Below, piece after piece: positions 14,803 to 19,293 of a stretch of DNA of 35,104 nt (its first letter is position 1; each line of letters starts with the position of its first letter). Origin of the DNA: Candidatus Nomurabacteria bacterium. Its GTDB lineage: Bacteria > Patescibacteriota > Minisyncoccia > Phycocordibacterales > Phycocordibacteraceae. The position numbers and the translations under genes are program-made. The stretch covers positions 1 to 35,104 of the forward strand of contig CALRBA010000008.1 of assembly GCA_943353835.1 (NCBI GenBank), read 5' to 3'. The notes below the pieces were generated by a model. It ran no database searches. It was not told where the DNA came from and was given only the letters and a program-made list of their open reading frames with translations.

Positions 14803-15204
14803 GGGGGTGACCGGCTTTGACGGTCTGTACCTTGAAAGACGTGCGACGCAGTGCTCTCCCGCCAACACTTTAAAAGGGCAGGGAAACATACTTGCTAAGA
14901 ATACTCTTGCAAGCGTGAAGTCTCCATACTTCGGTATGTCTAACTTCGCGTTCGCGTTCGCGAAAGTCTAACGACCAACGCTACGCGACGTTTGTCTTCT
15001 TTCGGCGCTCATAGCGTTGGAGACAGGCGGAATTATCTGTGAGCTCGATGTACGGACTCCCGACCGCACATCTAAATAAGGGATCGGGTAGGAATGGTTT
15101 CGTCTGCGTTCCTCGCATCCTATCTTAAATATAACGTTGACTACGCGTCGTAGACTCTCTTTCAGAGACGGATTCGGACTCGGGTTCGATTCCCGACACT
15201 TCCA
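14803..15204 (+). ncRNA. ssrA: tmRNA (trans-translation RNA), 3' end altered by an insertion
   Basis: The tRNA-like ends are clear. 5' GGGGGTGACCGGCTTTGACGG pairs through GGGGGTG with 3' CACTTCC (two G-U pairs), and the T-arm TCGGG/CCCGA encloses TTCGATT. The tag frame starts with a likely GCT resume codon at 14894 (AKNTLASVKS...) and ends ...SNFAFAFAKV before TAA at 14969-14971. It is about 25 residues long and lacks the common C-terminal LAA. tmRNA with SmpB rescues stalled ribosomes and tags the unfinished protein for proteolysis. After the discriminator A15204 the sequence reads CAAAA rather than CCA: the element at 15202-19179 is inserted here, and the missing CA and the terminator are found at 19180-19213. 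Confidence 0.92.
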
Positions 15205-16721
15205 CAAAACGAAACTTCAGTCGGATTCAATTCGGAACCGAGCCCTGCGAAAGCCAGGGCTCGGTGCATTTCCGCGCGCAAGCGCGCGGTATTTTCTGAC
15301 GGCGGGGATGCTCTGAAATGCATGAATTTGCTCTGAATTGTGGGGTTCGTTCCGACCTTGCGAACGAAATTGGAAATCTCGTGCAAGTCGTCGGACGAAC
15401 TCAAAACGAGGGCTTGTTTCGTATCCAAAACCCACTCCCGCAGGGGTTCGACCCAATTTTTTCTCCCGCGTTCAAAATCTTTCTTTTTCTCTTGCAAAGC
15501 GGCGGCGGAGCGCATGAGAGCATCTTTCTTGGTCAGGTAAATAGGTTTTGAAATATCACCGTCCAAATACACACCGACAAGTTTTTCCATGCGCTCCTCG
15601 CCCGCTTTGATCTCTAAAGAAAGATTTTGAATCTCGCTCCCTGACGCGGTGATTTCTTCGCGCTCCCACTCGTTCACTTTGTTTAGCATCCAACCGGTGT
15701 ACCTATCGGGGAGCGAGATAGTTTGAAGCCGTTCCTTGATTTGACTTGCGAGCAGGTCTTCGCGCAGATACTTCGCACCGCAGTTTCCTTTCTTTTTCGT
15801 ACAGCGATAATAGCGATAGCGACCGCCAGATTTCCCGGTACACCACTGCGCGGTGAACATCCCGCCACACTCAGCGCAACGAAAAAGATTGGCAAAAGGA
15901 AAATCGTGCTTGCCGCGCACTTTGCGCTTATGTCCTCTGCCCGCAAGTATTTTTTGGACGGCTTCAAACTGACGCGGAGAAAGAATTGGCGCAAAGCTTC
16001 CGGGAAAATATTCGCCATGATGCAAAGTGAACCCCAAATAAGCACTATTGGTTAATATCCTTTTTACGGAAGCTTTGCCAACTGGCGTTCCGGCCCTAGT
16101 CGTAACATTATGGTCCGCCAAAAACTGCGCCATAGAGACGAGTGTATACGACCCTTTGGCGTATTCTTCGTACGCTTTGACAATGATGCGTGATTTAACT
16201 GCGTCTGGTTCTATATTGCGCGTCTTAGGGTTGTTCACATAGCCAAAGGGAGCTTTCGCTAGCCACTCGCCTCGGCGCAGTTTTTGGCGGACGCCGCGCT
16301 TAATATTTTCGCTCAAATTGTCTGAATAATATTTGCTTTGGCCGAACGCCACTTGCAACATAAAGAGCCCCTGCGGAGTGGGTTCAAACCAAAATGTCGG
16401 AAAGCGCAAAGAGACAATTTTAGAAGTGTCTACGGCGTATATGATGCGTCCTCCGTCGATACTGTTACGCGCCAACCTGTCGGGATGCCACGCGAGAATT
16501 CCCACACCATCCATTTTCTCAATACGCATCATCATAACGCCGAACACTTCGCGCCCCGGACTCTTTGCGCTTTTCGACTCTTGAAATTCCTCAAGAATTT
16601 CAAGATTTTCTCTGCTCGCAAATTCACGAAGCTCAAATAACTGCGCTTCGATGGACATTATCTGCTTGTCGTCCTCCTCGGTACTTTTGCGAGCATAGAG
16701 AAAATATTTTGGTTTTGCCAT
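15162..16721 (-). CDS. Large serine recombinase (site-specific integrase)
   Basis: A 519-aa integrase of the large serine recombinase family. The catalytic domain (about residues 5-150) has the nucleophile Ser13 in YARKSTEE and the motif WHPDRLARN. The recombinase domain covers about 155-265, a zinc ribbon uses Cys282/Cys285/Cys307/Cys314, and a long coiled coil covers about 350-440. Residues 465-507 are encoded inside the left inverted repeat. The last 12 residues (SVGNRTRVRIRL) come from antisense translation of the tmRNA 3' end. In the circular form the frame would end in DILTFARTFYEQSN instead. The start codon is buried in a 12-bp inverted repeat. It is probably responsible for inserting the 15202-19179 element. 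Confidence 0.92.
   Translation of the reverse strand: MAKPKYFLYARKSTEEDDKQIMSIEAQLFELREFASRENLEILEEFQESKSAKSPGREVFGVMMMRIEKMDGVGILAWHPDRLARNSIDGGRIIYAVDTSKIVSLRFPTFWFEPTPQGLFMLQVAFGQSKYYSDNLSENIKRGVRQKLRRGEWLAKAPFGYVNNPKTRNIEPDAVKSRIIVKAYEEYAKGSYTLVSMAQFLADHNVTTRAGTPVGKASVKRILTNSAYLGFTLHHGEYFPGSFAPILSPRQFEAVQKILAGRGHKRKVRGKHDFPFANLFRCAECGGMFTAQWCTGKSGGRYRYYRCTKKKGNCGAKYLREDLLASQIKERLQTISLPDRYTGWMLNKVNEWEREEITASGSEIQNLSLEIKAGEERMEKLVGVYLDGDISKPIYLTKKDALMRSAAALQEKKKDFERGRKNWVEPLREWVLDTKQALVLSSSDDLHEISNFVRKVGTNPTIQSKFMHFRASPPSENTARLRAEMHRALAFAGLGSELNPTEVSFCGSVGNRTRVRIRL
15202..15331 (+). repeat. Inverted repeat IR1, left copy (left end of element, attL side)
   Basis: Reading by eye, these 130 bp match the reverse complement of 16770-16899 with one mismatch, in a hairpin loop. 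The copy starts in the tmRNA acceptor end (shared CCAC, 15202-15205). It contains two strong hairpins: a 10-bp stem at 15238-15264 and an 8-bp stem at 15272-15289. It also encodes recombinase residues from about 465 onward. Confidence 0.93.
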
Positions 16722-16752
16722 ACGTTTCTATACTATCACTTAGAAACGTATG
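16719..16752 (-). promoter_or_regulatory. Inverted repeat over the recombinase start codon
   Basis: A perfect 12-bp inverted repeat (16719-16730 and 16741-16752, spacer 10 nt) includes the ATG of the recombinase gene. It could be an operator for self-repression, since serine recombinases bind paired half-sites, or an RNA hairpin hiding the start codon. No Shine-Dalgarno is seen. The unique upstream region before the repeat IR1 is only about 17 bp beyond this element. Confidence 0.55.
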
Positions 16753-16769
16753 GCGGATACGAAACAAGT

Positions 16770-17079
16770 GCAAATTCATGCATTTCAGAGCATCCCCGCC
16801 GTCAGAAAATACCGCGCGCTGGCGCGCGGAAATGCACCGAGCCCTGGCTTTCGCAGGGCTCGGTTCCGAATTGAATCCGACTGAAGTTTCGTTTTGTGGG
16901 GATATTCTAACCTTTGCGCGAACTTTTTACGAACAAAGCAACTGACCATCTCGCACCTCGCAGAGCCTCGGTGCTCGCCCCGCTCGCGGACTCGCGCGGC
17001 CGCCCGTCGCCCTGCCGCTTCCTATGCATTTTTGTTTTGGCGGGGGAATGCATTGAAGAATGGAATGGAGCGGCAGGGC
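16770..17079. repeat. Internal inverted copy of the joined element ends (attP-like), IR1' + IR2
   Basis: The first 130 bp (16770-16899) are the inverted copy of 15202-15331. The next 184 bp (16896-17079) are the inverted copy of 18996-19179 with two mismatches. The 4-bp overlap GTGG (16896-16899) is the CCAC core shared by both ends. Sequence across this junction is identical, on the opposite strand, to what would form if the element ends were ligated. It therefore looks like an intact attP retained inside the integrated element. Hairpins present include a 10-bp stem at about 17001-17078 enclosing a second ATGCATT pairing. Confidence 0.9.
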
Positions 17080-17167
17080 GAAGGGCAAAACAGGAGATTT
17101 GCATTTAAGTAGATAGTGGTAAACTGTATTAACCCTGCGAGGGACAATTAACAACTAATTTTAAATT

Positions 17168-17890
17168 ATGACAAGTCTTGAAAATCCGAACCCAAGAGAA
17201 ACCTTTGATAAAAATGAGGACGGTATTGCTCAAACAAAAAAAGCAATTGCCGAAGCCGTTGCCGCCGGCGATTATGACAAGGTTGGAACATTAGCCCAGG
17301 AAGCAAAAGGCATGGAAGCGTCAAACCTCGAAATGAGCACGGTCTCACAGGAAGCCGTTGATGATAATAAAGCTTTTGACGAAGCAAAGGCTGCAGAAGA
17401 AAAAGCAAAAAGAGATACTGAACTTGCCGAGCAAGCAAAACTGCAAGCAGCGAAAGATTCGCAAGAAGCAGCCGCACTTTTGGCGAAACTTCAAGGTAGC
17501 CCCGCAGAAGCTCCATCAACGGAAACAACCGAAGCGTCGGTGATTGGGAATGCCGAACCAGTGGCCACTGAAAATACTGTGGAAAGAACAACCACGAATC
17601 CTGAAGAACAAGAAGTAGTCCAGAAAGCGTTAGAAACGATTCAAGAAAAATTGGGAAACTACAAGGACAGTTACGGGACCATCTTATTCAAGGTGGGCGA
17701 TAACGAGATAGAAGTACGTAGTAATGACAAGGGTCCTGGATGGGAACCTTTCCGTGTTCAAATCCCTGCCGACTTCGGCAGACTATTCAAAAAGGACGCT
17801 CCGATTGGATCTTCTTATTCCCCTGCGCTTGGAACCCTTAGAAGTGTACTTGATCGAAGCTATAAACCTTCTTGGGACGGGGGGCGATAA
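17168..17890 (+). CDS. Element cargo: coiled-coil hypothetical protein
   Basis: A 240-aa acidic protein of unknown function. Residues about 15-115 are rich in Ala, Glu, Lys and Gln with heptad-like spacing, so a coiled coil is likely (KAAEEKAKRDTELAEQAK). A Thr/Glu-rich linker (about 115-150) follows. The C-terminal domain (about 150-240) contains aromatic and Gly residues (SYGTILFKVGDNEIEVRSN, GPGWEPFRVQIP) and may be globular. There is no signal peptide or membrane segment. It is the first gene after the internal repeat, 88 bp downstream of it, and is followed 51 nt later by the BRO-N gene, so both probably share a promoter. It could be a structural or plasmid-maintenance protein, but no motif supports a choice. 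Confidence 0.7.
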   Translation: MTSLENPNPRETFDKNEDGIAQTKKAIAEAVAAGDYDKVGTLAQEAKGMEASNLEMSTVSQEAVDDNKAFDEAKAAEEKAKRDTELAEQAKLQAAKDSQEAAALLAKLQGSPAEAPSTETTEASVIGNAEPVATENTVERTTTNPEEQEVVQKALETIQEKLGNYKDSYGTILFKVGDNEIEVRSNDKGPGWEPFRVQIPADFGRLFKKDAPIGSSYSPALGTLRSVLDRSYKPSWDGGR

Positions 17891-17941
17891 GTTCAGATAG
17901 AATCTCCAGTAAAGCGTTTGATGTAGCAATACGGTTACACT

Positions 17942-18775
17942 ATGACTGACGAAATCACAACAAAAATAGCGTTGTTTAAGGGGAAAGAAATTAGACGAAC
18001 ACTACACAGCGGCGAATGGTGGTTTGTCATTGCCGATGTGATAGTGGCGTTGACCGACTCGGCGCAACCGGACGGCTATATAAAAGATATGCGCCGCAGG
18101 GACTCGGAGTTATCCACAGGGTGGGGGCAAATTGCCACCCCCCTTTCTATTCCCACAGCCGGTGGCCCCCAAAAGCTGAATTGTGCCAATACCGAAGGGA
18201 TTTTCCGCATCATCCAGTCCATACCATCTCCCAAGGCCGAGCCGTTCAAGCGTTGGCTCGCAAAGGTTGGTTACGAACGAATACAAGAGATAGAGAACCC
18301 AGAACTGGCAACGAAGCGGACGCGCATGCTGTACAAGCTCAAAGGGTATAGCGACGATTGGATAGAAAAACGCATGCGCGGCATTGCAATCCGCGAAGAA
18401 CTAACCGACGAATGGAAAAATCGCGGAGCAAAAGACCAAAGAGATTACGAAATCCTAACGGCTGAAATTTCTAAAGCGACTTTTGGTGTCACGCCAAGCG
18501 AGTACAAAAAGTTAAAGGGACTGGCACGAGAAAATTTGCGCGACCATATGGACGACTTTGAACTCATTTTTAATATGCTTGGCGAAAGATCCACGACCGA
18601 AATACATCGTCAAGAAAAGTCCGTTGGCGTACCGAAACTCAAGCAGGACGCGCATCGCGGCGGAAGAGTAGCTGGAAATGCCCGAAAAGAATTGGAAAAA
18701 GAACTAGGGCGTTCTGTGGTATCAAAAAAGAATTTTTTGCAAAAACCGGAAGATAAAAAGCGACTGAGCAAGTAA
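17942..18775 (+). CDS. Element cargo: BRO-N domain protein (antirepressor/DinD-like)
   Basis: A 277-aa protein. The N-terminal ~110 residues carry the BRO-N pattern: a KIALFKGKEIRRTLHSGEWWFVIADVIVALTDS-type start, a KLNCANTEGIFRIIQSIPSPKAEPFKRWLA segment, then GYERIQEIENPEL. The C-terminal half is helical and basic (SEYKKLKGLARENLRDHMDDFELIFNMLGE) and ends RKELEKELGRSVVSKKNFLQ, as in DNA-damage-inducible protein D-like proteins. BRO-N domains bind DNA and occur in phage antirepressors. Here it could regulate the element or respond to DNA damage. It ends shortly before a 15-bp hairpin. Confidence 0.82.
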   Translation: MTDEITTKIALFKGKEIRRTLHSGEWWFVIADVIVALTDSAQPDGYIKDMRRRDSELSTGWGQIATPLSIPTAGGPQKLNCANTEGIFRIIQSIPSPKAEPFKRWLAKVGYERIQEIENPELATKRTRMLYKLKGYSDDWIEKRMRGIAIREELTDEWKNRGAKDQRDYEILTAEISKATFGVTPSEYKKLKGLARENLRDHMDDFELIFNMLGERSTTEIHRQEKSVGVPKLKQDAHRGGRVAGNARKELEKELGRSVVSKKNFLQKPEDKKRLSK

Positions 18776-18792
18776 TCCTTTCTGAAGGGAGC

Positions 18793-18992
18793 AATCCCCG
18801 CCATTTTATAATTTCTCCTCAAAATGGCGGGGATTATGTGCGCGGTGGGAGGGCGGGCAAGCAAGCACATAGACTTTGAGCCTCGCCATTCCTTTGAAAT
18901 TGGTTTGGCGAGGCACCTTTCTGTATTTGCATCGAACGGCTCATTTCTTCCCATGTGAGCCGTTAGGCGGGAAGATTTGAGCCGTTCCCGCC
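18793..18992. repeat. Array of four hairpins at the right side of the cargo arm
   Basis: Four inverted repeats stand in a row between the BRO-N gene and the right terminal repeat. A perfect 15-bp stem lies at 18793-18835 (loop 13 nt), a 9-bp stem (GCCTCGCCA/TGGCGAGGC) around 18880-18915, a 9-bp stem (AACGGCTCA/TGAGCCGTT) around 18936-18965, and an 8-bp stem (GGCGGGAA/TTCCCGCC) around 18967-18992. The first may terminate cargo transcription. Together they could be a structured RNA or a replication or transfer origin of the circular form. No coding frame is convincing here. Confidence 0.6.
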
Positions 18993-18995
18993 CGA

Positions 18996-19179
18996 GCCCT
19001 GCCGCTCCATTCCATTCTTCAATGCATTCCCCCGCCAAAACAAAAATGCATAGGAAGCGGCAGGGCGAAGGGCGGCCCCGCGAGTCCGCGAGCGGGGCGA
19101 GCACCGAGGCTCTGCGAGGTGCGAGATGGTCAGTTGCTTTGTTCGTAAAAAGTTCGCGCAAAGGTTAGAATATCCCCAC
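18996..19179. repeat. Inverted repeat IR2, right copy (right end of element, attR side)
   Basis: These 184 bp match the reverse complement of 16896-17079 with two mismatches by eye. The copy ends in CCAC at the junction with the restored tmRNA tail. It is GC-rich and contains the long imperfect hairpin described for the internal copy. Open frames across it are shadows, because the same peptide appears in both copies of the repeat without coding features. Confidence 0.92.
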
Positions 19180-19213
19180 CAAAATAAAAAACCACTCAAT
19201 TGAGTGGTTTTTT
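19180..19213 (+). terminator. Displaced tmRNA tail and intrinsic terminator
   Basis: The first bases (CA, 19180-19181) complete the tmRNA CCA when joined to 15205. Then comes an A-tract and an intrinsic terminator: CCACTCAATTGAGTGG palindrome flanked by A6 and T6 (19186-19213), functional on both strands. It probably ended ssrA before the insertion, and may now end transcription leaving the element. Confidence 0.8.
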
Positions 19214-19293
19214 GCGAAGTGGTGGTCATTGTACCAAAATGGACTCATTTCGAAATGTCGAAATTGGGTCAGTCCACTGTCCCTTTACCAGGC

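Follow-up and report, generated by a model that had tools for sequence, protein, structure and literature searches.

At the 3′ end of its tmRNA gene (ssrA), this Candidatus Nomurabacteria contig carries an integrated element of about 4 kb, which encodes a large serine recombinase (LSR) and has a whole second attP, inverted, in its centre. The outer copies of this site are attP halves split by integration: they derive from the circular junction of the right and left ends (R.L, attP1) at the 3′ end of the recombinase gene, while the inner copy (attP2) is a second complete inverted attP that integration leaves intact. The element belongs to a family of LSR elements inserting at the 3′ ends of tRNA and tmRNA genes, and the second site is a near-constant feature of this family. 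An inner copy is present for 160 of the 161 testable recombinases that are at least 38% identical to the one in the window (the whole stretch of 35,104 nucleotides analysed here), and the refuting case named in the sequence-only reading, a recombinase whose relatives carry no second repeat, did not materialize for this family, with a single example at this threshold. The features of the window are as follows.

14803 to 15205, plus strand: tmRNA gene (ssrA), the integration target (ARAGORN; Rfam RF00023, 97.7 bits; empty sites in relatives)
15162 to 16721, minus strand: large serine recombinase, 519 aa (Pfam Resolvase 3.8e-20, Recombinase 2.6e-11, Zn_ribbon_recom 4.2e-11)
15202 to 15205, plus strand: attL core CCAC, the switch point from tmRNA to element sequence
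15202 to 15334, plus strand: outer left repeat, P′ half of attP (attL side); inverted match to 16767-16899, 133 nt, 98%
16767 to 17079, minus strand: inner complete inverted attP (P and P′ joined at the core); 313 bp, 4 mismatches to the circular junction
16896 to 16899, minus strand: inner attP core CCAC (read on the minus strand), from comparison with the circular junction
17168 to 17890, plus strand: cargo ORF 1, 240 aa, no family
17942 to 18775, plus strand: cargo ORF 2, 277 aa, Bro-N domain protein (Pfam PF02498, 1.3e-11)
18996 to 19179, plus strand: outer right repeat, P half of attP (attR side); inverted match to 16896-17079, 2 mismatches
19176 to 19179, plus strand: attR core CCAC, behind which the native downstream flank starts
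19190 to 19214, plus strand: ssrA terminator, CCACTCAATTGAGTGG-TTTTTT, moved 4 kb away by the insertion

Insertion into ssrA is evident from the flanks. Joined at the core, they read ...CACTTCCAC followed directly by CAAAATAAAAAACCACTCAATTGAGTGGTTTTTT, a normal empty ssrA site with its terminator. Empty sites were also found in relatives, 14 of which have an intact tmRNA ending in the CCTCCAC core, in most cases with a terminator-like hairpin right behind it. The 3′ end of ssrA is the source of the B half of attL; attL and attR each combine a half of an attP with a short core and a half of a specific attB, and the end of the target gene is restored, as in other LSR elements. Together with the Pfam domains and the ARAGORN tmRNA, the joined flanks confirm the serine-recombinase element in ssrA that had been proposed from the sequence alone. 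At 15200-15208, the encoded CCA of the tmRNA (attB TTCCACCA) becomes TTCCACAA upon integration, so that the tmRNA here would need CCA addition. Among the RNA families of Rfam, the tmRNA alone was identified in the window, hairpin matches below the threshold not being credible, and an RNA-family explanation was dropped.

A repeat search of the window returned exactly the two inverted pairs described in the sequence-only reading, and alignment likewise supports its claim that both ends of the element recur, inverted, in the centre. For the right pair, the search matched 18996-19188 with 16887-17079 (193 nt, 97%), but the true repeat stops at the core, at 19179. The left outer repeat also encodes the C-terminal tail of the recombinase. 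The earlier estimate of about 310 bp holds (313 bp), whereas its count of three mismatches has to be raised to four. Set against the reverse complement of 16767-17079, the joined ends are mismatched at 15280, 19069, and 19078 and, on the edge of the repeat, at 15332. A circle inferred from these ends would run recombinase arm, attP, cargo arm, inverted attP, which is the order of the yeast 2-micron plasmid, as had been recognized. The arms of the inverted attP pair are 97-98% complementary and hence able to pair within one strand. Two full inverted attP copies depart from the usual single attP per LSR circle, although this criterion is not strictly defining. Given the length and identity of the repeats and their recurrence in 160 distinct elements, a chance origin is excluded. 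A further inverted repeat (16722-16752; CATACGTTTCTA...TAGAAACGTATG), possibly an operator or mRNA hairpin, separates the inner attP from the start codon of the recombinase.

Judged by its Pfam domains, the recombinase is a standard LSR, and its catalytic motif (residues Y9, R11, S13, R82, and R85) is invariant in 20 relatives. Its reading frame traverses the left repeat, crosses the core, and enters ssrA in antisense (15162-15334); the frames of 108 of 116 relatives cross it too. The C-terminal tail is therefore predicted to differ between the integrated and the circular form. The window recombinase ends in ...VSFCGSVGNRTRVRIRL in the integrated form and would end in ...VSFCGDILTFARTFYEQSN in the circular one. 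It is the sole gene seen in all elements: the cargo arms (0.5-9 kb) have no gene in common and carry, in relatives, DNA methyltransferases, HNH nucleases, and OLD-like and other defence-type genes. Comparison of the cargo yielded no excision factor and no replication, partition, copy-control, or transfer gene common to the elements, which speaks against the 2-micron-type copy control suggested by the sequence-only reading.

Family members were sought in 99 near relatives, in 384 genomes from the same class, and in 380 from the phylum, and a GTDB contig collection was scanned as well. Automated detection of inverted copies around the recombinase genes covered 214 distinct recombinases. At an identity of at least 38% to the window recombinase, 178 were retained: 160 with an inner copy, 17 cut by a contig end, and one without a copy (L274). 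This last case, the sole negative at this identity free of a contig-end cut, has 863 bp of 5′ sequence covered. A loose repeat search did not find the inner copy in L169 either; both elements may be decayed or cut. Both repeat pairs are present in 63 complete elements. In the tree, recombinases with an inner copy form one clade (support 100/99), inside which L169 is the only negative. None of 18 tested sister recombinases outside the clade has the inner copy, though the sisters also enter tRNA genes and keep the same orientation, with the recombinase 3′ end towards the tRNA.

Named hosts are mainly Patescibacteria (Paceibacterota, Nomurabacteria, and others), with some Omnitrophota and Bacteroidota. 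Two Bacteroidota records with the inner inverted copy, L277 (LGYU01000006.1, Chitinophagaceae bacterium PMP191F) and L280 (Roseivirga), are possible cultivable models; the title of one record gives a named strain, not a MAG. The elements were found integrated: no match above 28% identity was obtained in the plasmid database PLSDB, none was present in GenBank phages, and IMG/VR held distant or partial relatives only. The sequence-only reading knew of no described counterpart, and the open-access literature searched indeed yields no description of an inverted second attP in serine-integrase elements, nor of such elements in Patescibacteria.

Further integrations accompany the ssrA element in the same genome. 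A second member of the family (L006; G000:C3:58970-61730 and G000:C2:1-155) occupies tRNA-Tyr, where the assembly stops at the right repeat and the cargo contig is absent. Its recombinase is 36% identical to that of the ssrA element, yet an 82-bp stretch of the right repeat is 91-94% identical, which suggests that repeat or cargo modules were exchanged between the two co-resident elements. A third serine recombinase, of the sister clade (L180; G000:C2:47279-48670), sits in tRNA-Asn without an inner attP copy and is a natural control for it. Elsewhere, two related elements stand in tandem in L048, where they directly abut, and in L136, consistent with a newcomer using the attL of the resident as its attB.

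In nearly all complete elements the inner site is the exact P.P′ junction, with a core of about 4-8 bp corresponding to the end of the tRNA acceptor stem; the targets comprise 17 tRNA types and tmRNA. The P half contains a GTTCR motif resembling the tRNA T-loop. Its distance from the core mostly exceeds that of the tRNA motif by about 5 bp: it is found at -28 to -26 in P, whereas the tRNA motif is most frequent at -23 or -21. A displacement of the zinc-ribbon motif of this kind distinguishes attP from attB in serine integrases, and by this measure the inner site looks like a genuine attP. The L copies of one element are 98.5% identical on average, and repeat identity within elements exceeds that between elements (inner to inner, outer to outer) in 51 of 55 alignable element pairs. 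Mismatches between the copies are scarcest within about 40 bp of the core. With medians of 124 bp (L) and 148 bp (R) and a maximum of about 350 bp, the repeats exceed the integrase footprint. These alignments indicate that the two attP copies are kept nearly identical by concerted evolution, which homologous recombination, too, could bring about.

Arm order is identical in all 63 complete elements, including those of single-contig genomes, and every tRNA or tmRNA gene identified next to a complete element is on the side where the recombinase gene has its 3′ end. Homologous cargo genes have the same orientation relative to the recombinase in 55 of 55 pairs, a comparison drawn from only about nine gene families; a few single-gene cargo arms point towards the inner site. 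A reversed recombinase arm, with the tRNA joined via P′ to the recombinase 5′ side, was seen in 11 contigs (L100, L229, L252, L266, L268, L276, L306, and L308-L311). All of them end inside the element, and no complete reversed element is among them; each may be a misjoin, the result of integration by way of the inner attP, or an arm that truly has the rarer orientation. The near-fixed orientation may be due to context or to selection.

As an explanation for the second site, we tentatively prefer a role at the DNA level, which we regard as possible rather than probable: the attP pair would act as a fold-back, the inner copy serving as a splint for the split site in single-stranded DNA. The element would become single-stranded, for example after natural-competence uptake, a route we offer because relatives carry ComEC (15 of 15 high-quality relatives). 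The inner copy would then pair with the two ends and bring both together at the core, and host flap-trimming and ligation would rebuild the circle and its attP, with no need for a directionality factor. Mismatches between the copies would be corrected in the process without inversion of the arms, and the circle, once made double-stranded, would integrate via attP1. The fixed orientation argues against such a splint, which does not explain it, as a circle with two identical attPs should integrate reversed half of the time. Other single-strand routes were considered and rejected. The self-fold energy of the inner site is unremarkable, and attC-like self-folding was discarded at a z-score of only -1.5. 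LSRs cut all four strands, and direct CTXphi-like insertion of a folded single strand would therefore break the chromosome. Among the single-strand variants, the splint is the only chemically reasonable one. Slightly less likely is its extension to a multi-phylum family whose mobility would depend on a self-complementary att site: the intact copy would fold onto the split one in single-stranded DNA and rebuild the circle with no excision factor, concerted evolution would keep the site identical, and a serine integrase would thereby be coupled to the uptake of single-stranded DNA.

Instead of acting on single-stranded DNA, the inner attP might be the divergent promoter or operator of recombinase and cargo, where bound integrase autoregulates its own gene, a proposal we consider doubtful. 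A second intergenic copy containing attP would presumably be stable only if inverted, and integrations via attP2 would perhaps be selected out by loss of promoters or over-expression, which could account for the scarcity of reversed integrations. In keeping with this, 153 of the 160 elements have their divergent intergenic region filled by attP2, at most 250 bp upstream of where the recombinase begins, and several have a TATAAT-like sequence just upstream of the core, towards the recombinase. In L006, L156, L172, L173, L175, and L029, however, attP2 is 0.9-2.7 kb away from the recombinase, and the intervening genes run away from the recombinase towards attP2, yet the site persists (100% identical in L156; a complete attP in L156, L172, and L175). 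The gene orientation in this one subclade rules out the inner site as a recombinase promoter in general and, with it, a general autoregulatory role. Moreover, integrase binding needs about 50 bp rather than an identical repeat of up to about 500 bp.

It is unlikely, though conceivable, that attP2 is kept as a second working attP that integration cannot destroy, giving the integrase a renewed route to other tRNA genes, chromosomal or carried by incoming DNA, that needs no excision factor. Evidence for such a reaction comes from L260 (3520-5344, recombinase on the minus strand), where the recombinase arm stands between two different intact tRNA-Leu genes that face each other, with P′ behind each one. 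Recombination between the inner attP and a second attB would leave just such an arm, flanked by attL at two tRNA-Leu genes; the arrangement is thus a probable chromosomal rearrangement via the inner attP, which makes activity of this site during evolution probable. Whatever attP2 is kept for, we infer from L260 and the 11 reversed contigs that it is still able to work as an attP, and the depletion of mismatches near the core in both copies also fits a working site. Such reactions, however, separate the arms and rearrange the chromosome, only a single example was seen, and the long identical flanks are left unexplained.

We regard it as improbable that the inverted attPs recombine in the circle, flip the arms, and drive double rolling-circle amplification as in the 2-micron plasmid. 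The layout is 2-micron-like, as is a recombinase gene whose end overlaps the repeat, and a reversed recombinase arm is present in the 11 fragmentary contigs. Flipping of the arms, as put forward in the sequence-only reading, should nevertheless leave both orientations about equally frequent, and the uniform order of complete elements and of cargo pairs excludes free flipping as a regular process. In addition, LSRs do not normally recombine attP with attP, and the elements share no replication gene. That the inner site has no current function and is merely the relic of an ancient duplication, its copies kept alike by homologous gene conversion, is very improbable: the concerted evolution of the copies fits this view, but conversion with crossing-over should flip the arms, and retention of an intact copy in all but one testable member of a deep clade, across several phyla, requires selection. 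Finally, an assembly artefact or a mixed population mis-joined at the repeats is barely credible even though many contigs end at the inner site, since the copies have unique flanks on both sides and fixed mismatches, and is refuted for the family by single-contig genomes with the same structure (L113-L119).

A deep clade that nearly always keeps a mirror-image second attP identical to the first implies that something selects for attP2, and the selected role is neither simply that of a recombinase promoter nor that of a regular flip-flop. Serine integrases are thought to use one attP and one attB, and the use of an inverted second attP to such an enzyme is a question raised here that is directly testable. 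The site also marks a common family of small, tRNA-targeted elements, often bearing defence genes, in very small genomes; it allows the att sites of integrases that target a broad range of tRNAs to be defined exactly and explains many contig breaks in such assemblies.

Among known systems, the family resembles phage-type LSR elements that integrate at tRNA or tmRNA 3′ ends, with which it shares a protein of Resolvase, Recombinase, and zinc-ribbon domains, short-core attP and attB sites, restoration of the tRNA, and a zinc-ribbon motif spacing about 5 bp longer in attP than in attB; it differs by the second complete inverted attP and has no shared excision, replication, or transfer genes. With the yeast 2-micron family it has in common two arms split by site-bearing inverted repeats and a recombinase gene that ends in the repeat, but its recombinase is a serine rather than a Flp-type tyrosine enzyme, and the element is found integrated, has its arms in one orientation in complete elements, and lacks Rep/STB. 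Serine invertases such as Hin and Gin likewise combine serine catalysis with identical inverted sites flanking a segment, whereas here a large integrase with attP/attB asymmetry is involved and no regular inversion is seen. In CTXphi, one of a group of related filamentous phages, opposite attP sites about 90 bp apart pair in single-stranded DNA, and host XerC exchanges one pair of strands (PMC3089051). The elements described here share with it two opposite attP sites that could form one duplex site in single-stranded DNA; unlike in CTXphi, at least 1.4 kb separates these sites, and in place of XerC/XerD at dif an LSR encoded by the element itself acts at tRNA and tmRNA targets, where it cuts both strands.
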